Shown here one piece after another: positions 1 to 57,696 of a stretch of DNA of 64,000 nt. The notes under the pieces are model-generated. The model did not search any database, was not told where the DNA came from, and was given only the letters and a program-made list of their open reading frames with translations. The translations under genes were made by a program, and so were the position numbers. Every line of letters starts with the position of its first letter. Position 1 is the first letter of the stretch. Origin of the DNA: Plumapathes pennacea (taxonomy: Eukaryota; Cnidaria; Anthozoa; Antipatharia; Myriopathidae); NCBI GenBank assembly GCA_964036295.1, contig OZ038464.1, positions 4,157,501-4,221,500 on the forward strand. The letters run 5' to 3'.

Positions 1-400
1 AGAACTAAATTGTGCTGATTGACGTGCAGTAGTTGCATTCCTTGGCTAGTGTCATTTTGTCGACAGTATTTTGCACAACTGTCGGAAAGAAATGATTGAA
101 GTGAGTCGTTTGTGAGCGTTTTGTAATCTTTACTAAATGTTCTTCGATTAACTGATTTTTGGGGAATACATGACCGTACAGCCGTCCGAATATAGCCTGT
201 GTTGTTAGGATTTTTCCTGATTTGTTCTGCAACATGTTTATGTTGTGCTAGTCCTAATTCTCGTTTGATTTCCCGTTTGAAGTTCCTATAGCCGGTCCAT
301 GCCAAACGACCATTAGTTCCCCTCGCTAACTTCCGCAACTCGATTATGGTTTTCATTGGCGCACGGATCTCACTATTGGCCAACTTCATTTTTTAACTTG
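1..400 (-). pseudogene. Non-LTR retrotransposon reverse-transcriptase relic in copy A
   Basis: Read on the minus strand, it codes WTGYRNFKREIKRELG... and, in another frame, HFNHFFPTVVQNTVDKM. Both are typical of the linker between the endonuclease and reverse transcriptase of LINE elements. A frameshift separates the two parts. The same relic sits at 43,374-43,810 in copy B, so it was inserted before the duplication. It is not a channel exon: its frame does not fit the phase of exon 14. Confidence 0.65.
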
Positions 401-719
401 TTTAAGAATGCATGAAGATCATGGATTTGATTGAGTAAAAAATGAAACCATGAAACGCATTTAGTTTTTCTTCACTACATAGAACTAACGTGTTATGAAA
501 GAGAAATACAGCAAAATGGTTCAGTTTTTTTTTTCTTTTTTCAATTAAGTTACTGGAAATGGAAATAATATTAAACAGCCTGCATGATCTTATGTATTTT
601 TACACAGCCATGCGATCATGTTTTTCAGTGGTAACATGAGATTTATCCATGTGAAAGATAGATTTACCTATTTGTTGTATTTGGATATTATCATAGAAAT
701 GTTTCCATTTTTAACATAC

Positions 720-798
720 CTCTAATTGGAAATGAGGCGCCGTATTTTGAACGGTACTCTTCCTCTAACCAATCCATCAGTTCTTTCATGGATTCAGT
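720..798 (-). CDS. TRPC-like copy A, exon 14 (last in window)
   Basis: The 79-nt exon (phase 0 to 1) codes TESMKELMDWLEEEYRSKYG then ASFPIRG, a short acidic helix. Acceptor CCCGACAG, donor AGAG|GTATGT. Its phase-1 end matches the first SPRY-side exon of copy B (43,298), so copy A probably continues the same way beyond base 1. Confidence 0.7.
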
Positions 799-15700: not shown

Positions 15701-18700
15701 GCCTTCTACATTATTGCATGTGTAAGAAACTTATTCAAAAGAATAGAAAATACTCTAAGTTACAAAGCAGTTTCTTCTGGAAAGAGATAAGACTACAGTT
15801 TTTTTAAATCTTTAGTGAGCGAGCAAGGGCGAGTTCGAGTCGTTCACCGAATAAAGTTCACTGCAGTGTCGTTGTTTGACACACGCTATCGGCCATTTCA
15901 TTTAGCTCAGAACAAATTAGTATTTATCTGGGCAGTTGGTTCGACAAACGCTTATTTTCTTTCAAGATTTTCAAATCGGCAGAATTGTAAGCTGTTAATT
16001 GAATTTGATGTGAAAACAAACGTACGTAATTCATGCCTAATCGCAATTGATGTTGTTGAATGAACGAGACGAGTACTCATTGTGGCCCCGTGTTTTTCAT
16101 AACTTACGGTACGGACCAAGCAAACGAGGTTAATAAGATATTTATTATATGGCTTTAAACCTTTCGGTAAACACAAAACAAGGCCCCAACGAGTACTCGT
16201 CTTGTTCATTCAACAACAGCGATCAGGCATGAATTACGCACGTTTGTGCTAGTGTTCAGCGTGTTTTCATGATACTGAGAAAAGAAACTTCTTTTAGATG
16301 ACAACGTTTACGTACGTAAAGTGTGTACAACGATCCAAGCTTGAGCCCTTAAAGAGCCTCCCTCAAGCATGATCCTTCACGCGCTCCAACGTCATTTTCG
16401 AATTTCGAAGTCGAAAATGGCGTTGGAGCGCGTAAAGGATCATGCTTGAGGGAGTCTCTTTCATGTCTGGTTAGCTTCTACGGCGCTAAAATCCAGTGGT
16501 ATCCCAGGGGACATTTCGACGTTCAGTTTCTTTTTTATTTCAGTGACACTTTTACAAACTAAATTACCTCTAATCTTCAAATCGAATGGCAGCGGAATCA
16601 CATGGTTGCTTTTTACTTACCTCTCTCCTTCAATGTTATGTGGTGACACATTCCGAACACCAAAAACAAGAGTGGGAACAATAGTAGGTCAGGAATTGCC
16701 CAAAGATGCAAAAAAGCCCATTTCCACCATCCTTTTTTGTCCTTGTCCTCTAGGGAACTGCCATACCACTTTTTGTGGATCAAATCATAAACCACGGGAT
16801 GGGCAAGGAACTGTCAAAATGCAACAACTTCAACTGCTGTTCTTTTAAATTTGTAACTATAAAAACGGAATTCTTGTTCTTGAAAAGGAGGCACTGTTTC
16901 CTTAACAAGACTACCCGCGAAGCTGTCATCAACAACTGACAAATTGGCGTGTAAAAGACCTCTCATTATTTATCGTAGGGACAGGATGGGGAAGTGGGGG
17001 GGGGGTTTGGGGGTGTAGGATTTGGGTATGCCGGAATATAGGTAATTAATATAATTCCCTGATTCACGTTTAAAAACAACTGTAAAGTTTCATGCTGCTT
17101 CCTGTACCCCCTCTCCTCATTACGTTCAAATTGTAAAGATCGTCCCTTTCGTCTATACATAAATGAGTGATCTCCCAGTTTCTCATCTCAAAATCGAGTG
17201 AACCTCCCCCCCACACAAACACACGCACGCGCACACACACCCGCCACACACACACACACACACACATGCACGCACGCACACACACATACGCACAAACACA
17301 CACACACACACACACACACACCACCACCACCACCAAATAAAACGTGTCTTCATATTCATGATTTGCATTTATAAGGGCTTTAAATTTTTAAAGAGCCTTG
17401 TCGAATAACTGTAAAAATTGCTAGATAATTTTCCGAAGACGTCATGATTGTGAAAATCATGACCAATTTGCGCCAAAATTGTAAAGAATTATAATGTTTC
17501 AGTCAATCATATAATATATTATTTTATTACCTTCTTTTGGTTCTTGTCTATTGTCATGTCCACCAAGGCATCTATTTCCTTACTGAACACTTCTTGCTTC
17601 TCCTCATGTGTCTTCAGGGGGTCTAACAGATGAAACGCAAATGCCTCTACATCCTTTTCCAGTTTTCCTAACTGATGTTCATAGATGCTTTGGGTTTTGG
17701 ATAGTAACTTTAGCTGGTAACTGACCTGGACAAAAAATAAAAATGTACATATAAGCAGTTTCGCACCATATTTCCAGCCTTCGTTCCACTTCAGTTCCAT
17801 TTTTCAGATATTGTACCTTGTATAAACTGGAAGCGAAACAATTCCATTTCTTGAAGAAGGCTCGAAAAAAGAAGGACTCGTAAAAATACTCCGCCGTATT
17901 GCACTCCTTCCCCCTTTACTTTTTTTTATAATTTCTCTCGATTTTGCAATTTTATCTGTTATGTAAAGTATGTGCTGCTTCCATGTGAGGTTTTAAAGTA
18001 AAACGGTTGCAGGACCTTCTCGTACCAGACTTCGAGTCGCGCGGACAAATACAAGGGCCTGTTGCACAGGCTATACACCAAACAGACTGACTGAGGAACA
18101 TTAAATTCCAAGATGGCGACTCGCTTGGAGTCTCCAAAAGGTGTAATACTGCACCATTAGCGTCGTGATTACTACCCTCGCAGGGATCGGGTATAAAACC
18201 TCGGTTAATATGAATGCTGATAATGTTCCATGTGCTTTGCTTTTGAGGTAATACACATATTTTGCTGTTAGTACGTAAACTATAGTTAAACCCTCGCCTA
18301 CCTCAAATGACATTTCGAAGGAGTTACGATTAACCTTCATAAGACTACGTGGTGTCACCAACTCATGGATGCTTTCAAAGTTGCACGGGCGCGAATTCAA
18401 TGCGGCCATCAGTTCATCTTTAATAGCTGTACATTGGTTAAAGAAAACATGGCATTGTTTTCATGTAGAGCTATGAGATAATGTTCTTTGTAAAATGAAT
18501 ACACTCATTTTAACTAAATCTACGTTGCAGCAATTATAGGGGTTCGGTCATTAGTTACGCATGCCTCTTTTTAAAATAACGCTGCGCGCATATTCAATAA
18601 GCTTCAACGGCTAATTCAATTTGTTTTGTATGTGAACCTCAAAACAGGATAAAATTATTCCAAAATCAAAGCAAAACCTGAGGGGTTTACTTCAAAGTAC

Positions 18701-21700
18701 ACGGACCTTACCTCGCTAGCTTCTGCGGCACTCAAATCTAGCCATACGTCGAACGGCTTGTCAACGGTTTTCATTGCATAAATCGCCGCCGGCTTAAATC
18801 GCAACAAATTTATCGAATAGACAGCTTTCCCACCCGACAGATTTTACTAAGTCTTGAAAGAAAAAAGAAGTCGTCTCACTAAGTTCCGATTCTGCTGAGA
18901 GGAATACACTAGCTGAAACTGTCGACAGAAAATTATTCATTGGATTCGTGTTTGAAATCACTGGCCCATAGCATAAACAACAGCAGGCTTTAAAATGGCT
19001 AGCATAACTTGCCGTATTCAATGATTTCAAAACAAAGAGCAGTCTTGATACAGTCCTCATGCAATTTGCGAAAATTATCATTTCCATTGCAGCGCCCGTG
19101 AAGAGCAAAACATTTCGGCAGTGGATCCAGTAAATTTCATTTAGAAAGTAACGGTGAAGTTTGCTTTGGCGACGGCTCGATTTCCACCGACTGAACTTTG
19201 CTTTTCCTTCCTGATAATGTATCTAAGTTTTAAGACAAACTACGTGGCATAATGTGTTTTGTTGTGCTCGAGCTTCGCTTCGCTTCATTCGCCATTAATC
19301 AAACTTGAAAACGTTAGCTTCACAATTTCAAGTTTTGAGAACTGAGCTACCGCGCGTCAACAGCTCCTACAGACCGAGCCCCTTTAATGTGTCGCCTACA
19401 AGCCTTTACCACAGAGGCACCATACTCAGGGGCAGATCGTGGGGAACCCTTAATCAGCCCCTGTATCTCTCGGAGGATGCACAGAGGCACATCCTCGTGA
19501 CCCTTATCTAGCATGTTTAGAATTTGATATATAAATTTATGACCCATCAAATATTTCCTCCCGCGCGTGATTGGTGGAATCGTGACACGTGACCGAATAA
19601 CGTCCGCTCACGAGCGGACGTTATCAGCGAATAACCCCCGTCTGGCAAACTATCGCAGTTTATGAACAATATCCGAACACAGTTTTATATATTGATCACA
19701 AAAAACCATTACGAGATGACTACCGCGGAGGACATCAATTCATTTGTCGAAAAAGCAGTTCCAGAAAGCACCAAAGAGCTTCACAGTCCTTGCGCCATTA
19801 TTTGCGCTGCGAGAGGAAATAGTTGAAGGATAATAAGGACAATAAGCTACTTTTGGCTTCGGAAATATGCACGGATAATTGTCCTTGGAAATTGTCTGTT
19901 CCTCGAAGCTCACACTTGCCCTCGAGCGGCTCGGAACAGATAGTATCCTCGGACAATTATCCGTGCATATTTCCGAAGCCAAAAGTAGCTTATTGTTTAT
20001 GTATCTTATTAACCGAGTGCACGGTCCGTACCGTAAGTTATGGACCGAGTTTCCATAGATCTGCAGCACTTGTTGTCAATGACGACTGAGGTCGCAAGCA
20101 AATTTTTCCTCGGATGTTTTCCTTCTTCGTAACGGTCATTTTTCTAGATTGTATAAGCTTTCCCCGATTATCATAATTTAACATTGGGTATCCGGAATGT
20201 TTAAACTTCCCATTGCACTTCTGGGCCTTCTATGACAAACGTTTAGCAACTTTTCGAGTAATCATTTGCGATCCACATGTACAAACTAATTTTGCGGTCC
20301 GCACAGTAAGTTATGGACCCGTAAAATTGACCAATCAGAACGTGCGTAAAATCAATTTGCGGTTTGTACAATAAAGTATGGATCGGTAAATTGACAAATC
20401 GTAGCGTGCGTAGTATCAGTGCCATATAATAAAACGTATTACAAGCACCAGTTGGTAATAGTCAAGCGGAAAAGAAAAACAACTATACTGAAATAATAAA
20501 TAGATAAAATATTATATCATAATTCGTAGCATGTGGTCGAACATTTAAACACGGGCCTCTGGTTCGGGAGAATTGGGCAACCACTCCCTATGCCTCGACT
20601 TTAAATAAATATATTTATTTAGTTATTTTATTTATTAATTTTTTGTATATGAGTGAAATTAAAGTGCCTATAATGGCAAAAATATTATTGTTAAAATCAT
20701 GTCTACGTCAGGTAACTAGTTGACTAGTAGAATACTTCTTGTTTTGAATGTTGCGCTTATGAGTTATGAAGGTTTAAACTTCGAATATGTTAATGACGTT
20801 AATGACGTGACGTTTACCCAGAAATAATCTATTACACAAAAACTTGCTGGTGGAGATAAATGACACTTTATATCCGAAACCGTGTTCAATCACAAGGAAA
20901 AAGAAATGACATAAAATGCCTGGGTAGACGTCACGTCATTAGCATTTTAATAATTTAAATTTAAATAAATAATTTAAATAAACAATAAACTACTTTTGGC
21001 TTCGGAAATATGCAAGGATAACTGTCCGAGGATATTATCTGTTCCGAGAAGCGAACAGTTCGCTCTCGGGCAAGTGTGAGCTTCGAGGAACAGATAATGT
21101 CCAAGGACAATTATCCGTGCATATTTCCGAAGCCAAAAGTAGTTTATTGTCTTTATTGTCCTTCCAATATTTCCTTTTGCAGCGCAAATAATTGCGCAAG
21201 GACTGTGAAGTTTTTTGGCGCTTTCTCAAACTGCTTTTTAAGCAAATGAATTGGTGTCCGCCTCGGTAGTCATCTCATAATGTTTTTTTGTGATTAAATG
21301 TGTAAAACTGTGTTCGGATATTGTCAATAAACTTACAGCGATCAGTTCGCCAGGCGGGGGTTATTCACTGATAACGGTCACGTGTCACGATTCCACCAAT
21401 CACGCGTGGGAGGAAATATTTGATGGGTCACAAACCTTCACAATTTATAGGCGCAACATTCAAACCAAGAAATACTTTACTACTGAACTATTTACCAGAC
21501 GTAGAATCGATTTGAACAATAATATGTTTGCCATATAGGCACTTTAATTATTTAGAACGTACATTTTCTGCATATTTTATGAAAATATACAGGAAGCATT
21601 GTCTGAGTATTGCAGTACTTGCCTTCAGCTTCCTTTCTGTCATGATCCGTCACATCATGCCCATAATCTGAATCTGAAAAATTGAAAGATTGATGACAGA

Positions 21701-22721
21701 TCCGACTTTGAAACTAGCAGAACATTCACGATAACTTTAATGTTATATTTTCATCATGTGTACTTGTATATTTTGTGCGCCGATTATATTAAAGTGTATT
21801 GTTCTGTATGTGAGAGTACGAGCGATGCTCAGCTTTTAGTAAATTGTCATACCTTAATTTCTAGATTTTACTTTGTTAATAAAGTTTTCCATTTTTTTTA
21901 CCTGCATGGTCAAGATGGTTATATAATTGTGTTACATAAATCATCATAAACTGATGCTACACTGATAATATTTATCAACGTTTCGCCTCGCAGTACAACG
22001 CGCACGTGCAAACGGCCATGTAGCGTTGTTTATTATATAAATATCGATCAAATTTCCAGAATAAAGACATATCTCACAGCCTTAATTTCCTCTTAGAACT
22101 TGCAGTATTCAAAAATCGCGTGCACAGTGAACATATATCATTTTTATCTTTCAATTCTAAAGATGTCGCGCGCGATGAAAATATCTGTCCTTAAAACTGT
22201 AGAAATCCTGGTATTTCATCAATATCTGTATAATAACTTACGGTTATGGACCAAGAAAACATGTGGCTGCTAATGAACATTAAAATATATTATGTGGCTG
22301 GTCCACTGGTGTGCAATATGTCTACTATTAAAGCTTACCCGGGAACACACTTCGCTTTAGACTGCGAGCAGTCCCTCCAATTTTCCTCTAGGATCGTACT
22401 GCAAGAGTCCAGTTGCGAGCGCGAAAGAGTATGGCGTGCGGGAAGTGTGCCTCCCCTCCCCCTCCCCTGCCTCGCCCCACTTTCCGTGCGCCTTACTCTT
22501 CCGCGCTCGCGACTGGGCTCTTGCAGCACAATCTTAGAGGGAAAATAAGGGACTTCTTGCAGTCTACAATTGCTTTTACCTTCAGGATTAATTTCGCTGG
22601 GGATTGAAGAGATGGACTCACCACTTTCCTCTAAGTATTGACTTTGCTTATCTTCTTCGACCTCCTTTGTTGATGCCACCTTGTCGTCACAAGACTGATT
22701 TTCAGTTAGTTGAGAATCCAT
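720..22721 (-). CDS. TRPC-like cation channel, copy A (3' end outside window)
   Basis: This is a multi-exon gene for a TRP-family, TRPC-like plasma-membrane cation channel. Proposed exons, in transcript order: 22721-22580, 21673-21623, 19507-19410, about 18831-18712, 18426-18302, 17725-17531, 16810-16621, 10104-9801, 6365-6011, 4614-4598, 3901-3712, 3532-3514, 3229-3104, 2318-2230, 798-720. Domain order is an acidic N-terminus, a pre-S1 segment with the FLAHP motif, S1 to S6, a pore with FGLAE, and a TRP box starting EWCF. Splice phases agree from exon 5 to the last exon in view. The exon 4 borders do not agree with their neighbours, and a stop lies in frame just inside the expected start of exon 4. 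The last exon ends in phase 1, so the gene continues left of base 1, where copy B has SPRY exons. No ankyrin repeat is recognisable. Confidence 0.8.
882..1069. repeat. Foldback element (long hairpin)
   Basis: Near-perfect palindrome of about 188 bp. The arms begin CACGAGTTTCCATG and end CATGGAAACTCGTG, and the loop lies around GCCGCTTCGGC. Pieces of the same family (CACGCGGGATGTTGGGAGAA and relatives) occur at about 25,990-26,040 and 39,880-39,920. It lies in the intron upstream of copy A exon 14 and is absent at the matching place in copy B. Confidence 0.7.
1708..1760. repeat. Dispersed small element, CGCGCGTAGTATCAT family
   Basis: A short piece carrying TATGATACTACGCGCG (inverted here). 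Related copies lie at about 25,860-26,040, 39,795-39,850 and 42,930-43,140, each with AACCAATCAG or GATTGGCTAA next to it. This looks like a high-copy miniature element. Confidence 0.55.
1964..2168. repeat. Miniature element, 'AACCCTTT...AAAGGGTT' family
   Basis: About 205 bp with complementary ends (TTAACCCTTTCACTCC and GGGAGTAAAAGGGTTAA). The inside contains TTCTCACCAGAAATA and GAACTTGGCTTTTGATA. Related copies are at about 31,960-32,520, 32,755-32,945 and 34,515-34,790, with an end fragment at 27,590-27,640. Confidence 0.65.
2230..2318 (-). CDS. TRPC-like copy A, exon 13
   Basis: This 89-nt exon (phase 1 to 0) codes CKCKCRDGDPVNQDSSNQSS then KTKIDDQEFQ, a cytosolic linker. Acceptor TATTTTAG, donor CAG|GTAATT. 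In copy B the 3' half is replaced by about 550 bp of other sequence. Confidence 0.65.
2418..2556. repeat. Foldback element with TTATTACACGA ends
   Basis: An inverted repeat centred near 2,485. The arms carry GAGTGCAATACGGC and GCCGTATTGCAC, followed outward by TTACACGA and TCGTGTAA. Related pieces follow at 2,560-2,770 and recur near 17,880, 49,950-50,045 and 53,030-53,090. Confidence 0.65.
3104..3229 (-). CDS. TRPC-like copy A, exon 12 (TRP box)
   Basis: The 126-nt exon starts EWCFKRCVAYRTYRDYHPIP and continues VPLNIVSLPS. The Trp in E-W-x-F and the P-V-P-x-N-x-x-x-x-P motif correspond to the TRP box and following segment of TRPC channels. The acceptor is TTCTTTAG and the donor TATT|GTAAGT. 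About seven differences from copy B were counted by eye. Confidence 0.85.
3514..3532 (-). CDS. TRPC-like copy A, candidate 19-nt microexon after S6
   Basis: A 19-nt exon (codes TVCIQS plus one base) bounded by TTACAAG and CAA|GTGAAA. It converts phase 0 after S6 into the phase 1 required by the TRP-box exon. The same 19-nt unit with both splice sites is present in copy B. It is inferred from phase and conservation only. Confidence 0.45.
3712..3901 (-). CDS. TRPC-like copy A, exon 11 (pore and S6)
   Basis: This 190-nt exon codes the pore helix and selectivity filter (WWSTLRHLAWSLFGLAEM). S6 follows (AIYLVVAVILLVNLMIALLS), then NVYQGVE. An FGL-x-E filter and an LxNLMIAL gate helix are hallmarks of TRPC-type channels. 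Acceptor TTTCGTTTAG and donor GAG|GTAAAT are clear. Confidence 0.92.
4598..4614 (-). CDS. TRPC-like copy A, 17-nt microexon before the pore
   Basis: A 17-nt exon (codes KGGFA plus two bases) bounded by GCAAG and GCGTG|GTAAGT. It changes phase from 0 to 2, which is what the pore exon needs. Copy B has the same 17-nt exon. A longer version starting at an upstream AG would put the pore exon out of frame. Confidence 0.6.
6011..6365 (-). CDS. TRPC-like copy A, exon 9 (S3-S5)
   Basis: A 355-nt exon, phase 2 to 0. S3 begins DTWNVLDF, the usual W-N-x-x-D signature of TRP S3. S4 lies around LYGLNTLCLIVRAFGSALES, and S5 around FWQFLVAILAFSFAITKIFM. It ends CAGTAC|GTAATA. The reading frame is intact. 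Confidence 0.9.
6927..7300 (+). repeat. tRNA-derived SINE in intron of copy A
   Basis: The first 73 bases fold roughly as a tRNA. There is an A box (TGGCTCAGTTGG, 6,934-6,945), a B box (GGTTCGAACCC, 6,978-6,988), and an acceptor stem GCCCGGT pairing imperfectly with GCCGGAC. An unrelated body of about 300 bases follows and ends in a (TATG)n tail at 7,262-7,294. That layout is a SINE, not a functional tRNA gene. It lies within a block of about 2.15 kb (6,826-8,974) absent from copy B. Confidence 0.7.
7330..7412. repeat. Small foldback element
   Basis: Palindrome with arms around ATTATTCGCC and GGCGAATAAT and an inner pair GGTGAATAGCGGT / ACCGCTATTCACC. It lies directly next to another inverted-repeat element. 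Confidence 0.65.
7414..7594. repeat. Miniature inverted-repeat element
   Basis: Bounded by TAGTATATACCACACA on the left and TGTGTGGTATATACTA on the right, about 180 bp apart. There is no coding capacity. Confidence 0.65.
8257..8609. repeat. Direct duplication of about 85 bp around a dispersed repeat
   Basis: The segment starting AGAATACTGCACAATGTGCT occurs at about 8,261-8,343 and again at about 8,527-8,609 with one or two changes. The intervening DNA (8,345-8,525) carries GTTTCGGCCTTATTAGGCC and may be an insertion that duplicated its target region. Confidence 0.6.
9801..10104 (-). CDS. TRPC-like copy A, exon 8 (S1-S2, expanded S2-S3 linker)
   Basis: This 304-nt exon, phase 1 to 2, codes S1 (near TPYFVFVRDTISYIVLLLLH) and S2 (IEFAIIVFFVGRIIMELDQF). 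A linker rich in Lys, Asp and Arg follows (DRKKKHKKKKDSQRKDGE). The copy B exon is 241 nt, so copy A carries 63 extra bases (21 codons) in the cytosolic S2-S3 linker, in frame. The donor is TTTAG|GTAAGA. Confidence 0.85.
10685..11793 (+). mobile_element. Non-LTR retrotransposon 5' part (ORF1 and start of ORF2)
   Basis: ORF1 starts at 10,685. It codes a long coiled coil (residues about 15-100, rich in Glu, Lys and Gln), then SLEITGIPV, typical of the RRM-like core of LINE ORF1 proteins. At a C-run near 11,151 the frame is lost. The next frame continues DRLIMKYIHRDTRELIYK, so ORF1 is broken by an indel. A second frame from 11,560 (MAEIERNVSDVPFFNLSHRK, then SEYYSISKLNKTINKAG) resembles the start of ORF2 before the endonuclease. 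It stops abruptly near 11,793, where a different repeat begins. It lies antisense in intron 7 of copy A and is absent from copy B. Confidence 0.65.
11800..12400 (+). mobile_element. Helitron-like fragment (5' repeat plus start of Rep/helicase-type protein)
   Basis: A repeat with GACTCCAAGCGTGTCGCCAT (11,815-11,962) is followed by a frame from about 12,076. That frame codes a strongly basic coiled region (REARLQKRREQARARRNRET, then IEQRQIRLEKRR). This kind of Arg-rich start is common in Helitron helicase proteins of invertebrates; that assignment is from memory of the family. The frame shifts near 12,240. The same two parts occur in the same order, reversed, at 51,080-51,680. Confidence 0.5.
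13490..13735. repeat. Tandem repeat, 41-bp unit with degenerate 20-bp subunits
   Basis: Four units spaced exactly 41 bp start at 13,581, 13,622, 13,663 and 13,704 (CCGAATCCGTTTTGGCATAA ...). Shorter degenerate units (CATTCAGGCATAACCGAA) precede them. No protein-level constraint is visible. Confidence 0.85.
14280..14575 (+). mobile_element. Non-LTR retrotransposon 3' coding end (relic)
   Basis: The plus frame contains PIIFYDYIMPAQKSIHITQD, then ARTNYGTTTFNSLASQIWEK. This matches the C-terminus of LINE polymerases, where a Y-G-x-x-x-F-x-x-x-x-x-x-x-W pattern is usual. It may belong to the element whose start lies at 10,685. Confidence 0.55.
16020..16245. repeat. Foldback element
   Basis: The arms carry GAGACGAGTACTCATTGTGG and the inverted ACGAGTACTCGTCTTGTTCA, with outer matches GTACGTAATTCATGCCT / AGGCATGAATTACG. 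It lies in intron 7 of copy A and has no equivalent in copy B. Confidence 0.7.
16351..16461. repeat. Copy-A-specific hairpin element
   Basis: A near-perfect palindrome whose arms begin AAAGAGCCTCCCTCAAGCAT and end ATGCTTGAGGGAGTCTCTTT. The flanking sequence is continuous in copy B (CTTGACCCTTAATGTCTGG near 51,887), which gives an empty site. Confidence 0.8.
16621..16810 (-). CDS. TRPC-like copy A, exon 7 (pre-S1)
   Basis: This 190-nt exon, phase 0 to 1, starts FLAHPVVYDLIHKKWYGSSL. It continues into a hydrophobic segment, AIPDLLLFPLLFLVFGM, ending near HHITLKER. The F-x-AHP...WYG pattern followed by a hydrophobic helix is the pre-S1 region of TRPC channels. Acceptor TTTTGACAG and donor AG|GTAAGT are both strong. 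Confidence 0.85.
17205..17336. repeat. CA/CAC microsatellite
   Basis: An imperfect (CA)n tract of about 130 bp ending in (CCA)n. The matching place in copy B (52,508-52,540) has a C-run and (CCA)n instead. It generates spurious long Val/Cys frames. Confidence 0.95.
17531..17725 (-). CDS. TRPC-like copy A, exon 6 (cytosolic helices before pre-S1)
   Basis: A 65-codon exon, phase 0 to 0, containing EHQLGKLEKDVEAFAFHLLD and ending ALVDMTIDKNQKK. It runs straight into FLAHP of the next exon. In TRPC channels the helix before pre-S1 has the same position and a similar ending. Acceptor TTGTCCAG and donor AAG|GTAATA are clear. Copy B has an exon of identical length. Confidence 0.75.
18055..18190 (-). 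repeat. Dispersed repeat related to the Helitron-like 5' end
   Basis: Contains the reverse complement of the segment at 11,815-11,962 (GATGGCGACTCGCTTGGAGT here). The equivalent in copy B is at 54,045-54,165, so this insertion predates the duplication. Further copies are at 51,570-51,680 (-) and 61,190-61,320 (+). Confidence 0.6.
18302..18426 (-). CDS. TRPC-like copy A, exon 5
   Basis: This 125-nt exon enters in phase 1 and leaves in phase 0. It contains FESIHELVTPRSLMKVNRNS. The acceptor is TGTACAG and the donor GAG|GTAGGC. It is conserved in copy B. It forms part of the cytosolic N-terminus. The sequence does not match an ankyrin repeat well enough to call one. Confidence 0.65.
18712..18831 (-). 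CDS. TRPC-like copy A, exon 4 (5' border uncertain)
   Basis: The frame codes YSINLLRFKPAAIYAMKTVD then PFDVWLDLSAAEASE and ends at GAG|GTAAGG in phase 0. It is well conserved in copy B. The only plausible acceptors in copy A place a TAA in this frame immediately after the splice. The next exon needs an incoming phase of 1, so either a piece is missing or a different donor is used. Confidence 0.45.
19410..19507 (-). CDS. TRPC-like copy A, exon 3
   Basis: This 98-nt exon enters in phase 1 and leaves in phase 0. It contains the stretch DVPLCILREIQGLI. It follows the sequence CATGCTAG and ends TCTGTG|GTAAAG. It is open in copy A, but copy B has 8 extra bases and a stop. The product is not recognised. 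The polypyrimidine tract is weak, so this could also be conserved intron sequence. Confidence 0.45.
19540..21430. repeat. Inverted pair of repeat arms in intron 2 of copy A
   Basis: The left arm (about 19,540-20,020) and right arm (about 20,985-21,430) are inverted copies sharing GACCCATCAAATATTTCCTC and more distal sequence. Each contains its own foldback of about 165 bp (19,830-20,000 and 20,985-21,160) with GGCTTCGGAAATATGCA arms. The left arm has a 34-codon frame starting MTTAEDINSFVEKAVPESTK, which resembles the N-terminus of recombinase-like transposon proteins (weak). DNA between the arms (20,430-20,600) also occurs in copy B at 55,505-55,935, so the arms are separate insertions, not ends of one element. 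Confidence 0.6.
19590..19626. repeat. Perfect short palindrome
   Basis: AATAACGTCCGCTCACGAGC followed by its mirror GGACGTTAT. It lies inside the left arm of the inverted pair and is missing from the right arm. Confidence 0.7.
21623..21673 (-). CDS. TRPC-like copy A, exon 2
   Basis: This 51-nt exon has phase 1 at both ends and codes DSDYGHDVTDHDRKEAE. The acceptor is a TTTTTCAG tract. The donor is GC, not GT (AAG|GCAAGTAC), and the same GC donor occurs in copy B. Confidence 0.55.
22398..22530. repeat. GC-rich hairpin in intron 1, shared by both copies
   Basis: The arms are GTTGCGAGCGCGAAAGAG and CTCTTCCGCGCTCGCGAC, with a C-rich loop. Copy B has the same element at about 57,352-57,500 with a longer C-run, so insertion predates the duplication. 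Confidence 0.7.
22580..22721 (-). CDS. TRPC-like copy A, exon 1 (start codon)
   Basis: The exon opens with ATG and codes an acidic, serine-rich N-terminus (MDSQLTENQSCDD..., KEVEEDKQSQY). It ends at a GT donor (GAAG|GTAAAAGC) in phase 1. Copy B has the same exon with the same donor and clear protein similarity. An AG just upstream of the ATG could be an acceptor, so an untranslated exon may lie further upstream. Confidence 0.65.
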
Positions 22722-22740
22722 TATAAGGACACTAGCACTT

Positions 22741-24775
22741 CTGCAAATAAAATATTTTGTTTACCCTAGCGGCTTTTTGTCAAAATGGCCGATTTTGGCC
22801 AAAAATTGAAAACTCTTGAAACTTTCAGGAAACTTTCCTAATGAGAGCCGTTTCATTTCTATATTGACTACCTGAAAGGCTTTCCAAAATCATTTCAGTT
22901 TTTTTTCCGTGAGTAGGCTACTCTGTCAATATCGACTACTTTTCAAAATGTTGGATATTGTTAAAAATTTGAAGTCTGTTTACATGCAAAAACTGGATAA
23001 TTTGACGAAGTCTTCAAACATGTTGCTAACTGAAAACAGTCGTTTTGGAGACACCAAAAATACCAAACACAACAATAGTTTATAAATACATCACTTTATT
23101 GTCAAATCACTAAAACCCTTCGTCACTAAAAAAATCTGCATTTTGCTGATCAATACAATATTTATTTGTAGCTATACAGTTTCGGCTGCTAAAGACTTGA
23201 TCTTGACGGTCTGAACTTGCAGTCTACGCATCACAGCCCTCTTGCTACGAGATTACGTCAGATTGGCTGATTTTCTCCGTGTGCTTTGCCATAGCCCATT
23301 ACTGGTCACCAAAACGACCATCAAATTGCCCACATTAGGTCACAAGTTGATTAGTGTTATAATAATATAGATGCAAAAATACTCCATTCTGATTGGCTGA
23401 GAACAGGGTGTTATATTTAAATTAGTGTGCAAGTGTGCAAAAAAGGTTAATCAGGTGTGCAAAAGTAGTTAATCAGAGTTTATTGCACAGAATAATTGAT
23501 TTTGCGTACTCCGTTGCCATGACAATCACGCAAGTAAGTCGCAAGCTCAACTTTTGCATCGAGCGAGAGATGCCCAAAACATAAACAAAGGAGCCATAAA
23601 AGTTTAAACTAGGAAATTCAAACGAACGAAATCGACTCTAAAACATGGACGAAAATGCCTGTAAGAAATTCGGGGAGGAGTGGAATTATCGTCAAATGAA
23701 AGTGGAAATCTACGAGCCCGAAGTCAAGTTATGTTCAGAGATCAGCAAAGTGCGAAACCATCCGCAGCGGGAAACGATACGATACGATACGATAATCTTT
23801 ATTTAAACACGATAAGAGTTTAAGCATCAGCTTGTGGGGTCGTGGGAATAGTCTGAAACTTCAAGAGATCATCGACAGGTCGTGATCAGTAAACTTAGTA
23901 AGTTGATTTCTCCAGTTTCGATCCAGTTTCTTCTTCTGAAAAGCTTGTTTGTGAAAGTTTAGCCGCTCAATGTTCGTGAGTGTGTCGATCGTCTCTGCAG
24001 AACTTTATGACTGAAGCTTGAAGGCTTCACGAGACGATAGCAATTTTTTCACTGAACAGCAGCTTCAACCGGGTTTCATAATCTTCGCTAAGGAAATATA
24101 ACTATATAGACTTGCCGTAACTCGGGTTTCTCTTCCTTTCGATGATTGTCTGCAGCCAGTTATGCCGTTTTAGCGGTTCTGCTGTTCGGTGACTTTCAGC
24201 CATAACGTGTTCCATAGCAAAGCTCAGGGTGGTGCACGCAGCCAGTCGAAAACCCACAGTCTTCGGGCAGGCGGTCTTTCCCCTCGCCCCCACCCCCCTC
24301 CCCCTGCCCCGTAATTTTGTCACTCGACCTCAGTCTCCCATCTGCCATCAGTACAAAATGGCGCCCGTGAACACCGTTCAACCGCATCGAATGAGACCGC
24401 CAGCTACGCAGGCTAGGATTGAGATGTACTGAGCGCCGAGTTCAAACAATTTGTTGATAATCGTGGCAACTTTAATTCAATTGAGACTCACAAGAAATTG
24501 GGGAGGGTTAGGTCGTGCTCAACTCCCTCTTTTCTTGAAATATTAAAAAAAATCGCTTCGTCAGTTCAAGAAGGAATACTCGTGTCAACAAGAGTTAATT
24601 GCGTGGCAAACATTTTGAGCTACAGAAATCGAGTTTGCGCCCTTGGAAAAACAGAAGGAATTAACGCGCCCTGTATATAACTTTTCCGAACCAGACTGTA
24701 ACTGCTCCATAGTACAATTCAGTATACATGCTTGGATAGCTAATAAAGCTTAGATGGCGACATTTTCTCTCAAAT
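22741..24775. other. Upstream region of copy A, no gene recognised
   Basis: The first 100 bases match copy B upstream sequence (AAAATGGCCGATTTTGGCC at both). The rest differs. It holds a short repeat (ACGATACGATACGATA, 23,785), an unrecognised frame of about 50 codons from 23,645 (MDENACKKFGEEWNYRQMK) and a short C-rich stretch near 24,290. No splice-bounded gene was recognised. Confidence 0.5.
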
Positions 24776-39303: not shown

Positions 39304-39465
39304 TTACTTGCTGTCTTTCTTCATTGCACCTTTAACTTCCAACAGCATGTCCTTCATCTCATCAATTTGAGACTCAAATTGAGATTTTAGATCGCGAATC
39401 TCCCCCTTCACACCTTGAATCTCTCCTTTTACTCCTTTAAGGATGGATTGGTCAAATGTGCCCAT
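39304..39465 (-). CDS. TRPC-SPRY copy B, last exon (C-terminal coiled coil, stop)
   Basis: 162 nt coding MGTFDQSILKGVKGEIQGVK, GEIRDLKSQFESQIDEMKDM and LLEVKGAMKKDSK, then TAA at 39,304-39,306. Heptads suggest a coiled coil that could mediate assembly. Acceptor TGTTGCAG. Confidence 0.85.
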   Translation of the reverse strand: MGTFDQSILKGVKGEIQGVKGEIRDLKSQFESQIDEMKDMLLEVKGAMKKDSK

Positions 39466-42400
39466 CTGCAACAGACAAATACATAAACAAAGTCGGACTG
39501 GCGTTTTAGACGCCGCTCCTCGCCAACCTCGTTCCCAGGCTGGGGCTGGATTGAGAGAAGAGCCTGGGAACTAGGTTGATTCCTCGCATACACCAAACGT
39601 AATGCAAATTAGCAAAAGAAAGCATTGTTTGAGACAATTGGCATCAAATGAACCGGGCGTTAAATGTCTTCGTCCGTCAATGACGATTTGTATCATTGTA
39701 TTGTTACCTCAAGTTTGATAGTAATGGCGACAAACGCTGACCAATGGAAGTGGCGTCAAGAACGAATTTCTGCGGTGCCGTCAATACATTTTTTATAAAA
39801 TAACTATGATACTACGCGCGTTCTAATTGGTTGAAAAGCCGGTAATTATTTAAAATCAACATAACACACGTTTCCTGAAGTGGCTCGTGATTTTGAACTT
39901 TTTCTCGTGTTCTGAAAAGTCCTTGAATTTGTGTAGCGCCTTGGAAAGCCCTCAATTTTGACAACAGTCCTAGAAAAATTAGAATGTATTGAATGAACCG
40001 AGAAATAAATCGATTGGCAATTTGATTCTGCAGTCGACAAGTCAAGTGCCATTCACGGAACAGCATTGGGGAAAACTGTTCAGAAACAAGGCATCACTGC
40101 AGCAGGAAATGCACTTCAATGCTAGAACAAGTAAATACGGGCTAACCGCTTTATTTTTAATGAAAGATCTGTGCCGTACGAAGAACTATTAGAGAAACTG
40201 GGTCTGACGACTCTTCAAAATCTAAGACTTTTAAAGATAGTTTGCACTGTCTTTAAGACATTGAATCATCCACAAGCTCCAAGCGGTATCCAGGATCTCA
40301 TAAACAAAAGAAACACAAAGTACAACCTCAGGGGAAATGAAATACTGAACCAACCCAAAGTCAACACTACTACGTACGGACTACGATCATGGAGGCACAC
40401 AGCCCCAAAACTCTAGAACACGCTACCAAATCAATTAAGAGTACTAAACACTTACAAAACGTTCAAAAGTCATCTAAGAAAGTTAGAGTTGACGAAGATA
40501 TAGTAATCTGGGCAATTTCCTTAAGCATTGTGGATAGCGGTTCGTTCTATAAGAAGTAATTCTAGGCATTTCAACCATTATTATTGTACCTAGTTTTACA
40601 ACATTAAAACATCCTAGACTTAGTAGAAATCTAATCAAATTTAGGTCAGGGTAGGTTAGGTTAGGTTTTGTTTTTGTTTTTGTTTTTGCTATGTTTATGT
40701 TTTTTTATGATTTATTTTTTATTTTTTATTTTTTATTTTTATTAATTTTAGGGTGATGGGCCAAGGGTGGGTAGTGAGTTGGTCTATTTTAAGTAAATTT
40801 AGGCATCTTAACTATTACTATCTTATTCCTAATACTGCCAAGCAGTATCTTATAATGTAATTAGAGTAGTTTTGTGGCATACCTGTAAATTAGCTGGACC
40901 ATCCAGCATAGGAAGATCCTTGGAGCTAAGTGTATTGACCACGTTAAATAAAGTTTATGTTATGTTATGTTGATACAGTCACTTTGAGGAGAATATTAAA
41001 AACTGAAATTCTTTTAAGAACGCTAAACGTTCTATTTGGACCAACCAGGTAATTTTAAGTCCTCGAAAATATTAAATTGGCCTTGAGAAGCCCTTGAAGT
41101 TCGATTTGAAAAATCTGTACGAACCCTGCTTTACAAAGGAGAATTAAACGACCGATATGTCGAACCTACCACAACCCACCGTATGGGTGACGAGACATGC
41201 CAACTTTGGAATGTACTCACGCTAAACTTTACTTTGATTCCTGCGCTGTGCATTGCAATGCAAGGATAAAGTTGTTCACCACTGTTTTTGATACAGGTTT
41301 TTCCGACTTCTCTTCTATTCAGACTGAAAGTTACAGGAACGTAGCCATCTTTCTCTTCATGGAAAAGAACTTTGCAGCCGACAAGGTCTCCACTGTATCC
41401 CAATGCGCCTAGATTAAAAGATAATGCAAGTAAGTTCACCAAAGATTAAAGGTTCAATTACTTGGAACAATATCGAATTGATATAGTATATTTAAATGTT
41501 AGTTCAAACGAACGACGTAAGCATAACTGTATACATTCTATTGTCTGTCGCCTCTGTTTCATGCCTAAATGAGAACCTTGACGCGCAAGTATAAATAATG
41601 CGTGAAGATAAGTCAATGTTCACACTTTTTTCTGACGAAGGGCGGACGCCCAAAACTTATGGGGTGTTTACATGATACCGTATGACTTATATTGCGGTAC
41701 GAGATATGTTTTTGTACTACGTTTACATCGGAGGCCGTTGTACCAGAATGACGAAGATGCTTATGTGTGCCTAATAATGCTCGTCGGATATTTCGTTTCG
41801 ACCCCCAAGAGGTACTAAAATTGGCGTGGCTCGAGCGCATTTTGACCCCTAAAAGTTACCAATAAAAACATACCAATATAATAAAATTCATTCGACTGAC
41901 ACCCGACCCCTAAACGGTAGCACGTCACATAAAATTGTCAGCATTTGATCTTGAGCACCCTAAACGGTACCAAAACCCGTGATTTTGACCCCTAAACGGT
42001 ACGAAGGGCATCCCCGTTCTTTTTTATATGGAGTTACCCCCACCCCCCGACATCTCACGTTTACCACTACGACAACACAGTCCAAAATTAGTTCTCACAG
42101 GGACTATCATTCAATTGCGTGTCAAAAGATCAAACCTGGCAGCTCTCTGCCAAAGTTTCTGTGTTTTTCCTCAAAAATCCTTCCGTCGTCAAGGTGATAT
42201 CCTACAGATTTGTCAAGCCAGCCTGGAAATACCGTGAAGTCTTGATGGTCGGACAGAACAATTCCAACTCCCAACATCCGGTCACTGCCACTTTCTTCAA
42301 TTAACACCTTCGAGAACAAACACACTAACTATTAGACTTTTGTAATAGTATGCAAAACCGAAGTTATTCTAATGTCCCCCTCTAGTTCCTGTAGGAAAGC

Positions 42401-56100: not shown

Positions 56101-57696
56101 ATCATTCGAGTGAGCTTGCATTTCACAAATTATTTGGCATAAAATGTGTTGGGAAGCGCGCGTTGTAGCGAAAACGAGCTGCCATATTCACACAGGTGGG
56201 AAAAACTGCGCATGAGCAGATACTTATTTGTAGGCAGTTATTTGCAGGTGACGTAGTAGTCTCTCGGCCAATCAAAAGAGCGATAAAAAGTATCGAATGA
56301 TAAAGATGTTTATTTATATATATATTATTTATTATCGTTGTATATTTTTATGAAAATATACAGGAAGCAATGTCTGAGTATTGTAGTACTTGCCTTTAGC
56401 GTTTTCTCTGAAAACACCTGTTGCATCATGCCCAGAGTCTGAAAATTGAAAGATTGATGGCAGGTTTGACTTTGAAACTAGAACAACATTCACGATAATT
56501 TTAATTTTATATTGTTTTTCCACATCTGTGTATTTGTAAAATTTGTGCGCCAATTGTACTCAGGTGTATTGTTTTGTATGTGAGAGTACGATCGATGCTC
56601 AGCTTTTAGGCCCCGTTTACACTTGAAAACTGTTTCGGATACAAAGTATCCGGATACAAAGTTCCCACTTTCGATTCCGGATTCGTTTTCTCTCCGGATT
56701 CACTAAAAATGACCCCAGATTCACAAAAACTAGTGTAAACGCTTTCACGAATCCGGAAACAAATGCTTCGAATCCGGATAAATTCGCTCTAGTGTAAACG
56801 GAGCCTTAGTAAGTTGTCATATACCTTAATATGTCTAGTTTCTACTTTGTTATTAAAGTTTTTGTATTTGCTTTTAGCTGCATGGTCAAATCTATGTTAT
56901 GCAGTATAACTCATCACAAACTGATAATATTTATCAACGAACGAGTCAGAGATTTCGTCAACACGAGAAGATATCCAAGCGGCCATGTAGTGTTGTCTAT
57001 TATATAAATATCGATAAGATATCCAGAATAAAGACGTATCTCGCAGCCTTAATTTCCTCTTAGAACTGACTGTCTTCAAAAATCGCGTGTACAGTGAACG
57101 TATGATTTCACTTGTAAAAATACCGAAAATGTCAGTTTTTAAAACTTGAGAAATACTGGTATTTTATCGATATATGTATAATAACTTACGTTTACGGACC
57201 AAGAATACATGTGGCTATTAATGAATATTAAAATATATTCTTTAACTAGTCCACTGGTGTGCAATATGTCTACTATTAAAGCTTAGCCGTGGAACACCAA
57301 TTGCTTTAGACTGCGAGCAGTCCCCCCAGTTTTCATCTACGATCGTACTGCAAGAGCCCAGTCGCGAGCGCGAAAGAGTATGGCGTGCGGGAAGTGTGGC
57401 CTCCCCTCTCCCTCCCCCCCCCCCCCCCCCCCCCCCCCGTCCCTGCCTCGCCCCACTTTCCGTGCCCCTTACTCTTCCGCGCTCGCGACTGGGCTCATGC
57501 AATACAATCTTAGAGGGAAAATAAGGGATTTCTCGCTACAATTGCTTTTACCTTCACGCAACAATTCCTCGATGAGGCTTGAACCCATGGGTATATTACT
57601 TTCCTCTGAGTATTGGCTTTGCTTATCTTCTTCGACCTCTTTTGTTAATGCTACAATGTCGTCACAAGACTGCTTTTCAGTTAGTTGAAAAGCCAT
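39304..57696 (-). CDS. TRPC-like channel with C-terminal SPRY domain, copy B
   Basis: Exons in transcript order: 57696-57552, 56438-56394, 55482-55377, 54808-54680, 54392-54274, 52884-52690, 52191-52002, 50307-50067, 48920-48566, 47061-47045, 46509-46317, 46240-46222, 45592-45467, 45310-about 45265 (3' border unclear), 44215-44137, 43298-43177, 42572-42450, 42307-42136, 41408-41221, 39465-39304. The channel core (pre-S1 to TRP box) is open and in phase. After the linker exon at 44,137 the phase-1 end fits the exon at 43,298. SPRY exons and a stop at 39,304 follow. Two unresolved defects remain: a stop in exon 3, and an exon 13 interrupted by foreign sequence. The channel would sit in the plasma membrane with SPRY in the cytosol. 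Confidence 0.75.
40150..40975 (+). mobile_element. 5'-truncated LINE, 3' coding end and tail, antisense in intron 18
   Basis: The frame from 40,171 codes NTKYNLRGNEILNQPKVNTT, then TYGLRSWRHTAPKL, a stop, and NTLPNQLRVLNTYKTFKSHL. This is the standard C-terminus of LINE polymerases, with a Trp codon changed to TAG. The 3' end is TTAAATAAAG followed by (TTATG)n at 40,955-40,975. Confidence 0.8.
41221..41408 (-). CDS. TRPC-SPRY copy B, exon 18 (SPRY end)
   Basis: 188 nt, phase 1 to 0, codes GALGYSGDLVGCKVLFHEEK, then FSLNRREVGKTCIKNSGEQL and YPCIAMHSAGIKVKFS. It contains the F-x-x-N-x-x-x-V-G and Y-P-x-I strands that close a SPRY fold. Acceptor AATCTAG, donor AGC|GTGAGT. Confidence 0.92.
42136..42307 (-). 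CDS. TRPC-SPRY copy B, exon 17 (SPRY core)
   Basis: 172 nt, phase 0 to 1, codes SGSDRMLGVGIVLSDHQDFT, then PGWLDKSVGYHLDDGRIFEE. The G-W-x-x-x-S-x-G-Y-H-x-D-D-G-x-x-F string is the SPRY signature as seen in RanBP9-like and ryanodine-receptor SPRY domains. Donor CCAG|GTTTGA is weak but fits the phase. Confidence 0.92.
42450..42572 (-). CDS. TRPC-SPRY copy B, exon 16 (SPRY start)
   Basis: 123 nt, phase 0 to 0, codes LWTGHHGIKIEGNTLTFRDE then VDEDCNVRYKKPLTRASPM. This is the first strand region of a SPRY domain. Acceptor GAATATAG, donor CAG|GTAAAA. Confidence 0.85.
42930..43140. repeat. Small element, CTACGCGCG family, intronic
   Basis: Contains TATGATACTACGCGCGTCCT, then an inverted pair around AATATAGCCTCATCTAAACA / TCTAGATGAGGCTATATTA. 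Confidence 0.6.
43177..43298 (-). CDS. TRPC-SPRY copy B, exon 15 (helical linker)
   Basis: 122 nt, phase 1 to 0, codes ESMDRVENSMNRIHHESVES then QRMINLIMHQMFADEESFDA. Heptad-like helix between channel and SPRY domain. Acceptor TGTTTCAG, donor ACAG|GTAATA. There is no initiator or promoter evidence for a separate gene start here. Confidence 0.8.
43374..43810 (-). pseudogene. Retrotransposon reverse-transcriptase relic in copy B
   Basis: Equivalent of the relic at 1-400. It has a two-base difference (GGCTGTATAGG against GGCTATAGG) and other indels that break the frame. It lies in the intron between the linker exon and the SPRY-side exons. Confidence 0.65.
44137..44215 (-). CDS. TRPC-SPRY copy B, exon 14
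   Basis: 79 nt, phase 0 to 1, codes IGSMEELMEWLEDKYRSKYG then SSFPIRG. It is the last exon shared with the visible part of copy A. The G left over at its end joins AA of the next exon to give Glu. Confidence 0.75.
45265..45330 (-). CDS. TRPC-SPRY copy B, exon 13 (3' part diverged)
   Basis: Starts after CTATTTTAG (CKYKCRDGDVMNQDSSSQSR) and matches copy A up to CAATCAAG. Then about 550 bp unlike copy A follow, before the homologous donor side reappears at about 44,710 (AAG|GTAATTCCTGG). A segment just before that donor, after TTGTCCAG (about 44,762-44,711), would code TEKDELIFLQDYYHGKK and could serve as a separate exon. The donor of the first part is not identified. Confidence 0.4.
45467..45592 (-). 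CDS. TRPC-SPRY copy B, exon 12 (TRP box)
   Basis: 126 nt, starts EWCFKRCVAYRTYRDYHPIP, then VPLNIVSIPSMVLYRLVRK. Donor TTTTT|GTAAGT. Confidence 0.85.
45681..45999. mobile_element. Miniature inverted-repeat element present only in copy B
   Basis: The ends are GAACCGTTTTCGGATGACTG and CAGTCATCCGAAAACCGCTC, 319 bp apart. Copy A reads straight through at about 3,288 (CTCTGGTATATGTGATTC). A further partial copy is at about 60,590-60,660. Confidence 0.8.
46222..46240 (-). CDS. TRPC-SPRY copy B, candidate 19-nt microexon
   Basis: Codes IVRIQS plus one base, with the same splice borders and length as 3,514-3,532 in copy A. It supplies the phase needed by the TRP-box exon. Confidence 0.45.
46317..46509 (-). 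CDS. TRPC-SPRY copy B, exon 11 (pore and S6)
   Basis: 193 nt, one codon longer than in copy A (extra acidic residue in the pore-S6 turret, near ESSSNDSSLNV). The filter is SLFGIAE and S6 contains AVILLVNLMVALLSN-type sequence. Acceptor TTTCGTTTAG. Confidence 0.88.
46917..47040 (+). mobile_element. LINE 3'-tail insertion present only in copy B
   Basis: About 124 bp ending (ACTAA)n, inserted between AAAAGCCACT and TTACCACGCG. Those are adjacent in copy A (AAAAGCCACTTACCACGC near 4,586). It sits immediately beside the 17-nt microexon donor. Confidence 0.75.
47045..47061 (-). CDS. TRPC-SPRY copy B, 17-nt microexon
   Basis: Codes NGGFA plus two bases. Bounded by TTGCAAG and GCGTG|GTAAGT. It changes the phase from 0 to 2 before the pore exon. 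Confidence 0.6.
48566..48920 (-). CDS. TRPC-SPRY copy B, exon 9 (S3-S5)
   Basis: 355 nt, the same length as in copy A. S3 begins DTWNVLDFVSVLIFFVVFAL. S4 and S5 follow, ending near TELSYITSEKNAGAQY. Donor TAT|GTAATG. Confidence 0.9.
50067..50307 (-). CDS. TRPC-SPRY copy B, exon 8 (S1-S2)
   Basis: 241 nt, phase 1 to 2. S1 near YFVFVRDTISYIVLVLLHWA, S2 near FAIIVFFVGRIMMELDQFF, then DRKKKYRPWQYITLYF leading into S3. This is probably the ancestral linker length. Copy A is 63 bases longer. Confidence 0.88.
50385..50710. repeat. Dispersed repeat, second copy at 63,640-64,000
   Basis: Shared words include CGAAGATCGACTTTGCT, GTGCGACAAA and TAGCGGCCGACTGG, ending AAGCGGAAAATAAACAAGAA. It lies near the Helitron-like piece at 51,080-51,440 but is not clearly part of it. 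Confidence 0.65.
51080..51680 (-). mobile_element. Helitron-like fragment (5' repeat plus basic N-terminal protein part)
   Basis: Reverse-orientation relative of 11,800-12,400. The minus frame codes REARLQKRREQARVRRNRET, preceded by the GACTCCAAGCG repeat (51,570-51,680) and a (CA)n tract at 51,530-51,560. The opposite orientation from copy A shows independent insertion. Confidence 0.5.
52002..52191 (-). CDS. TRPC-SPRY copy B, exon 7 (pre-S1)
   Basis: 190 nt, starts FLAHPVVYNLIHKKWYGSSL and ends with a hydrophobic segment, LLDILLFPLMFLVFGMCHH. Matches TRPC pre-S1. Confidence 0.85.
52505..52545. repeat. C-run and (CCA)n tract
   Basis: A run of about 20 C followed by CCA repeats. Its length is likely uncertain in the assembly. 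Confidence 0.9.
52690..52884 (-). CDS. TRPC-SPRY copy B, exon 6
   Basis: 195 nt, phase 0 to 0, contains YEHQFGKLEKDVQEFAFHLL and ends DALVDTAIEKNQKK. It has the same length and borders as copy A. Confidence 0.75.
53170..53412 (-). pseudogene. LINE reverse-transcriptase relic, catalytic FADD region
   Basis: The minus frame reads LFADDTNLFHFNKDINELDT, then (shifted frame) WLEDNKLPINVKKTKYILFK, then CKFFGVIID. The F-A-D-D motif is the polymerase active site of LINE reverse transcriptases. Broken by at least two frame changes. Part of a block of about 770 bp (53,171-53,940) absent from copy A. Confidence 0.8.
54045..54165 (-). repeat. Dispersed repeat, duplicate of 18,055-18,190
   Basis: Contains GATGGCGACCCGCTTGGAGT and TAGCGTCGTGATTA as in copy A, so it was inserted before the duplication. 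Confidence 0.6.
54274..54392 (-). CDS. TRPC-SPRY copy B, exon 5
   Basis: 119 nt, phase 1 to 0, contains NFEDIHELVTPRSLMKIKRN and ends at GAG|GTAAGC. It may start nine bases further upstream at an alternative acceptor. Confidence 0.65.
54680..54808 (-). CDS. TRPC-SPRY copy B, exon 4
   Basis: 129 nt, phase 0, codes LPGGKAFYSINLLRFEPAAI then YAIKTVDKPFKVWLDLSAAE. It is open, unlike the start of the copy A exon. The GGG|GTAGGG end is phase 0, whereas the next exon wants phase 1, so this junction is unresolved in both copies. Confidence 0.5.
55377..55482 (-). CDS. TRPC-SPRY copy B, exon 3 (disrupted)
   Basis: 106 nt against 98 in copy A. Relative to A, 8 bases are added after CTGCCCCTG (sequence GGTCTTAGAGG). 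This brings TAG into frame and shifts what follows. The flanking splice sites are kept. Either this copy is a pseudogene, or the exon is skipped or not coding. Confidence 0.4.
55690..55780 (+). repeat. tRNA-like sequence, probably SINE-derived
   Basis: An A box (TGGCCGAGTGG, 55,696-55,706) and a degenerate B box (GGGTTCAATATTC, 55,759-55,771) spaced as in a tRNA-Leu/Ser with a long variable arm. Stems are poor, so it is not called as a tRNA gene. Confidence 0.5.
55949..56096. repeat. Foldback element in copy B intron 2
   Basis: Palindrome of about 148 bp with arms CAATTATTGGACGAGGTTGA / AACCGAGTTCAATAATTG and a centre around GCCGATGCCGGAGGCAGAGGC. Confidence 0.7.
56394..56438 (-). CDS. TRPC-SPRY copy B, exon 2
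   Basis: 45 nt, phase 1 to 1, codes DSGHDATGVFRENAK. It has a GC donor (AAAG|GCAAGTAC), as in copy A. Confidence 0.55.
56609..56805. mobile_element. Harbinger-like miniature element, TTA target duplication, copy B only
   Basis: The ends are GGCCCCGTTTACACT and AGTGTAAACGGAGCC, 197 bp, flanked by TTA at 56,606-56,608 and 56,806-56,808. Copy A has a single TTA at 21,836-21,838 in the same context (CAGCTTTTAGTAA). A 3-bp TTA/TWA duplication suggests the PIF/Harbinger group (inference). Confidence 0.85.
57552..57696 (-). CDS. TRPC-SPRY copy B, exon 1
   Basis: ATG exon of 145 nt coding MAFQLTEKQSCDDIVALTKE then VEEDKQSQYSEES, ending in phase 1 at GAAG|GTAAAAGC as in copy A. An AG 20 bases upstream of the ATG could end a 5' untranslated intron. 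Confidence 0.65.

Follow-up and report, generated by a model that had tools for sequence, protein, structure and literature searches.

A TRPC-type channel with a C-terminal, diversifying SPRY domain, predicted from a tandemly expanded gene family in Plumapathes pennacea

The minus strand of the window, a 64,000-nucleotide stretch of P. pennacea DNA (C3:4,157,501-4,221,500, within a genome of 290 Mb on 24 contigs), carries 16 phase-matched exons, E1–E15 and E9b, whose spliced translation is an 841-residue frame with a single stop at its end. The modeled protein runs from a TRPC-type channel core through linker helices and a SPRY domain to a terminal coil. All junctions have AG acceptors and GT donors except at E2, which has a GC donor, and each of the exons E10–E15 has a single open phase, the one supplied by the exon preceding it. 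We call this gene copy A; its exons, in the order of transcription, are as follows, and related copies (A2 and B to F) are described below.

57552..57696, minus strand: E1, the most 5' coding exon recognised (MAFQLTEKQS...), ending in phase 1
56394..56438, minus strand: E2, short exon whose donor is GC, phase 1-1
54274..54401, minus strand: E3, N-terminal linker helices, phase 1-0
52690..52884, minus strand: E4, linker helices of TRPC type; E3 and E4 together match TRPC4 from residue 203 onward
52002..52191, minus strand: E5, pre-S1 region (FLAHPVVYNLIHKKWYG...)
50067..50307, minus strand: E6, S1-S2 with the GRIMMELDQ motif
48570..48920, minus strand: E7, S3-S5 (DTWNVLDF...)
46317..46509, minus strand: E8, pore (FGIAE) and S6, phase out 0
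45467..45605, minus strand: E9, TRP-box region (EWCFKRCVAYRTYRDYHPIPVPLN), phase 0-1
44705..44757, minus strand: E9b, linker exon, 3' part only in copy A, phase 1-0
44137..44215, minus strand: E10, linker helix exon, phase 0-1, with the same phases in a relative on contig C4
43177..43298, minus strand: E11, helical (coil) exon at the channel-SPRY joint, phase 1-0
42450..42572, minus strand: E12, SPRY exon 1, phase 0-0
42136..42307, minus strand: E13, SPRY exon 2, phase 0-1, bearing the six best-supported diversifying sites
41221..41408, minus strand: E14, SPRY exon 3, phase 1-0
39304..39465, minus strand: E15, C-terminal heptad-like coil with stop, end of the 841-residue frame

The exons named in a first-pass annotation of this stretch are all present on the minus strand where it placed them, and the three SPRY exons and stop-containing coil exon that it described join in matching phases into the 841-residue frame with its one terminal stop. 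At the 5' end, the frame of E1 stays open upstream to 57,735, and additional 5' coding sequence is possible. The exon search of the copies gave an E1-like first exon for A2, B, C and F but none for E. E2 is optional, as E1 joins E3 in frame too; it has an exon match only in the near-identical copy A2, and copy C has a similar translation. The pre-S1, S1-S2 and S3-S5 labels of E5, E6 and E7 follow what we take to be the TRPC topology. The coil encoded by E15 varies in aligned length among the copies (53 residues in A, 46 in B, 42 in C, 79 in D, 42 in E and 60 in F).

The linker required one correction. The TRP-box exon (E9) and the linker exon (E10) of the first-pass annotation are both present, but the former leaves off in phase 1 whereas the latter has to be entered in phase 0, which calls for an extra exon, E9b, between them. 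Copies B, C and F have E9b intact, running from phase 1 to 0; in copies A and A2 an insertion breaks it, and in copy E only its donor side was found. Its 3' part in copy A keeps an acceptor and the correct phase, and we infer a splice through E9b in this copy. The broken E9b of copy A spans window positions 45327-44705, and the insertion within it is missing from B, C and F.

The channel half has TRPC4 as its best match in the PDB (E 8e-24), with TRPC6, TRPC5 and TRPC3 next and the best TRPM match at E 3e-13. It aligns with TRPC4 residues 203-668, a segment covering the linker helices, pre-S1, S1-S6 and the TRP-box region, and the Pfam Ion_trans family scores 33.2 bits on the copy A channel half against a cut-off of 25. 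The TRP box, EWCFKRC...PIPVPLN, matches EWKFAR...TLPTPFN of TRPC4 and is retained in all five copies compared; helix- and coil-like exons, E10-E11, come after it, as judged by eye. The pore was first described as FGLAE-type, which holds for copies B, C, E and F, but copy A itself reads FGIAE. The Ca2+ site of TRPC4, which we take to consist of four residues (E and Q in S2, N and D in S3), falls in motifs that are retained in five of five copies examined, on a by-eye comparison with the TRPC4 line in which HMMER gaps lie close to these motifs. A Pfam search of the channel-half exons gave no ankyrin match, and an ankyrin consensus searched with phmmer against the 261 same-strand open reading frames in the 16 kb upstream of E3 reached a best E of 1.8; a more distant ankyrin exon could have escaped this 16-kb search. 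As no ankyrin repeats were found, we name the protein TRPC-type and not a canonical TRPC. The gene model has linker helices, pre-S1, S1-S6 and TRP-box region in common with the TRPC4/TRPC5 group but differs from it in the ankyrin repeats, of which none were found, and in the FGIAE/FGLAE pore of its copies, and in the TRPC-SPRY model the SPRY domain and a second coil come after the first C-terminal coil.

The SPRY half is closest in the PDB to SPRYD3 (E 6e-19), followed by RanBP10 (2e-5) and RanBP9 (3e-5). A family-profile search gave SPRYD3 (PDB 2yyo) at E 1.2e-21, RanBP10 at 1e-5 and RanBP9 at 3e-5, with the 2yyo alignment spanning profile positions 4-159 of 161. By Pfam SPRY (PF00622, cut-off 26.3 bits), copy A just misses the cut-off at 24.9 bits (E 2e-5), copy F reaches 25.5 bits and copy C 26.4 bits, and when copy C is joined by hand, both cut-offs are passed in one chain (Ion_trans 32.0, SPRY 26.4 bits); copy F has 29.9 bits for Ion_trans beside its 25.5 for SPRY. 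SPRYD3, RanBP9 and RanBP10 are soluble proteins, and by sequence they share this SPRY domain, whereas here the domain forms the tail of a putative ion channel and has diversified at specific sites. Ryanodine receptors, which are Ca2+ channels of the endoplasmic reticulum, also bear SPRY domains, in their large N-terminal cytosolic part. In contrast, the core here is TRPC-like and the only SPRY domain found lies C-terminal to the TRP pore. Kinship of this SPRY half with that of ryanodine receptors was considered and rejected, with no ryanodine receptor among the nine PDB matches at E up to 1.

Copy A is one of a tandem series. Within the window, the channel half of copy B (E1 to E10) occupies positions 1..22760 of the minus strand, and its E11-E15 lie to the left of the window at C3:4,153,767-4,156,633. 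A self-comparison of the window by blast aligns copies A and B in colinear pieces of about 81-94% identity. The frame of copy B's E6 continues past FKDRKKK into extra lysine-rich residues. In the flanks and at C3:6.71-6.77 Mb, the search brought the number of full copies to six (A, A2, B, C, E and F), in all of which E3-E10 and E11-E15 follow in sequence along a single strand, and added a partial copy, D (C3:4275780-4278954), that consists of E11-E15 only. Copies A2 and A lie inside an apparent recent segmental duplication of ~35 kb (C3:4113575-4148498 and C3:4192357-4228685) that is about 98-99% identical over most of its length. The aligned E3-E15 stretches, with E9b left out, contain no stop in the six full copies and the partial one. 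E4 of copy F, at C3:6722661-6722856, has an apparent frameshift, with 4 bases where one codon is expected between tblastn pieces, so not every copy need be intact.

More broadly, the arrangement recurs across the genome. At 25 of 26 places matching E7, spread over four contigs, a SPRY exon lies 3.0-11.2 kb downstream on the same strand, where SPRY means a match to E13 or E14, places that match only E11, E12 or E15 are left out, and the counts are lower bounds, 89 of 161 first-look candidates having been scored for E7. The sole exception is a 599-codon open frame on contig C6 with 23% identity. Four SPRY places are without an E7 match: C3:3,769,575-3,771,090, C3:4,016,127-4,017,605, copy D and C6:22,480,637. 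Upstream of the first of these, a later search located a TRP-box exon at 3,766,124. On these gene models, the predicted channel–SPRY fusion is a genome-wide rule and not the accident of one locus. The tandem copy in the window, the size of the family, the lack of ankyrin matches and the diversification of the SPRY domain all go beyond what the first-pass annotation had described.

A diverged relative on contig C4 (C4:3,134,930-3,137,875), whose pore exon is 48% identical to that of copy A, carries the comparison further. Its pore exon, TRP-box exon (phase 0-0), E10-like exon (0-1), E11-like exon (1-0) and E12-like exon (0-0), each between AG and GT, form one chain in which the phases 0, 1, 0 and 0 are kept from the TRP box to SPRY, and a match to E13 starts at the end of the stretch. 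No separate E9b was seen in this relative, which has one exon fewer and reaches E10 in the same phase. Used as a query, this chain recovered pore, TRP-box and E12-like exons at the three other C4 loci, in unchanged order, and an E11-like exon at two of them. Splice-site conservation among the close copies was dropped as proof of splicing because it is weak: their E10-E11 introns are still 83-93% alike where aligned. For the same reason, the C4 relative weighs more than the close copies against a division of the locus into two genes.

Diverged copies on other contigs repeat the order of the exons, their strand and their chain of phases, and a fused TRPC-SPRY channel, as the first-pass annotation had proposed, is therefore by far the best reading of the gene model. 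That annotation had also recognised neither a polyadenylation signal nor a start signal between the halves, but the intron between E10 and E11 contains a single AATAAA, at 43,782, and E11 has an in-frame ATG as its third codon in all seven copies. The hexamer does not exceed chance, as composition predicts 1.5, and we set it aside as evidence of a polyadenylation signal; the ATG, together with a copy D that is without a channel half, makes a SPRY-only product possible. Carried to its full extent, this possibility would turn the locus into two adjacent genes that are always duplicated jointly, one for a TRPC-type channel and one for a SPRY-coil protein with the E11 ATG as its start codon, and the E11-E15 content of copy D and the single hexamer could be read in the same way. 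We consider such an arrangement very improbable. E10 ends in phase 1 at 44,137 and E11, at 43,298, is open in phase 1 only, as first noted for this locus; the same phases occur in the C4 relative, where the E11-like exon lacks an ATG among the first 25 codons and has its first Met at residue 26; order and strand are kept at all but one of the 26 E7-matching places; and the hexamer count is below that expected.

A less radical alternative, which we treat as a minor though genuine possibility, has both forms being made, with intronic polyadenylation yielding a SPRY-less channel and splicing yielding the fusion, and with duplicated 3' cassettes such as copy D serving as alternative SPRY ends of the adjacent gene, copy E. 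The position of the AATAAA would suit the first part of this proposal, yet its frequency is no higher than composition gives. The cassette part draws on copy D, whose E11-E15 contain no stop, whose E11 is preceded by ~0.6 kb matching the E10-E11 intron of copy B and is open in the same phase as the E11 of copy E, and which is separated from copy E by a stretch in which no channel exon was found; this idea, however, comes from one locus. It is scarcely credible that the array consists mostly of pseudogenes. The interrupted E9b of copies A and A2, the apparent E4 frameshift of copy F and the partial state of copy D would fit decay, but seven copies are free of stops in their aligned E3-E15 stretches, copy A reads through as 841 residues, and the single-omega estimates are 0.38 (linker) and 0.56 (channel half).

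The two halves of the gene model differ in how they have changed among the copies. Pairwise dN/dS values, taken without the near-identical A-A2 pair, range from 0.28-0.61 in the channel half and from 0.46-1.18 in SPRY; the linker gives 0.16-0.78 among full copies and 0.18-2.5 in short pairs with D, and the E15 range, 0.28-3.0, is too noisy for use. Comparison of site models M1a and M2a, run with code written for this analysis, shows that the SPRY exons are under site-specific diversifying selection among six copies (2dlnL 42.9, p 5e-10); under M2a, omega is 6.3 for 18% of sites and 0.34 for 81%. In 60 null simulations under M1a, the maximum 2dlnL was 7.4, and none reached the value for SPRY. 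Among five copies, the linker shows no site-specific diversifying selection (p 1.0), and diversifying selection in the channel half does not reach the 5% level (2dlnL 4.9, p 0.09), with a lean in the same direction as SPRY (39% of sites at omega 1.5). The SPRY signal is concentrated in E13 (2dlnL 36.6, p 1e-8), is weak in E14 (7.6, p 0.02) and is not significant in E12 (1.9). Of the 161 SPRY columns, 23 have a posterior above 0.7 (nine in E13, eight in E12 and six in E14), and the six sites with posterior 1.00 are E13 positions 9, 11, 23-25 and 31, which fall within the two segments ESGxxRx and HQxxxVxPGWx. Varying stretches of this kind are ligand-binding loops in other SPRY proteins. A literature search for the binding loops of RanBP9 gave no match, and the varying sites here are candidate binding loops.

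Exchange between copies could produce a similar signal. The SPRY alignment has an M1a lnL of -1371.9 on its own tree and -1411.6 on the channel-half tree with D placed beside E, and this far worse fit points to exchange between copies. Hence the apparent selection might be an artefact of gene conversion, with SPRY a relaxed or static assembly scaffold; a single omega of 1.0 over all SPRY sites would agree with relaxation. We think this unlikely. E13 alone, on its own tree, still gives its 2dlnL of 36.6, the five topologies on which the SPRY exons were evaluated agree (2dlnL 42.9-60.8), and the uniform-looking omega conceals about four-fifths of sites held at 0.34 beside the fast-changing class at 6.3, with the six best-supported sites all in E13.

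We consider it probable that the locus encodes one member of a tandemly expanded family of TRPC-type channels with a diversifying, presumably cytosolic SPRY sensor, a domain that would bind a protein ligand and control or place the channel. The following steps are predicted from the gene models. Four subunits would assemble as in TRPC channels, and four SPRY domains would hang in the cytosol below the pore, between two coils, since TRPC topology puts the C-terminus on that side. Each SPRY domain could bind a protein ligand via its fast-changing segments, and ligand binding could open, close or place the cation channel. A repertoire of channels with differing cytosolic specificities would then arise as copies duplicate in tandem, exchange sequence and come under selection in their SPRY domains.

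A bolder extension, offered tentatively and with fairly low confidence, is that two dozen or more TRPC-SPRY genes might form a repertoire of cytosolic recognition channels, their SPRY domains diversified by selection and inter-copy exchange and perhaps supplied in part by alternative SPRY cassettes. Every channel would then convert binding of its own intracellular protein (self, symbiont or pathogen) into a Ca2+ signal, by analogy with the diversification of B30.2/SPRY domains in the immunity-related TRIM or fish NLR proteins. If the TRPC-SPRY genes are expressed as read, an ion pore would be coupled directly to a binding domain that is changing under strong selection, and it would become testable whether Ca2+ channels serve some animals as diversified receptors for recognition in the cytosol. 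The family would also constitute a natural domain-swap set for studies of C-terminal control of a TRPC pore.

Titles and abstract beginnings of the matches listed on SPRY with TRP, ion channels or cnidarians, or on TRPC in cnidarians, contained no TRPC-SPRY protein; automatic database annotations of such proteins may well exist. A study of the coral genus Montipora reports an expansion of a TRPC6-like family (PMC9145168); the word SPRY is absent from its main text, as it is from the main texts of PMC13183375 and PMC11526382.

Two further features of the window are of minor interest. A plus-strand open frame of 259 codons at 10655-11434 has no Pfam family above cut-off; its weak matches are chiefly to coiled-coil families, and it may encode a mobile-element protein. 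At 61448-62573 an 18-base unit is repeated in an array (62.6 copies with 90% matches), and a similar array is present in the sister duplication at C3:4,138,929-4,139,928.
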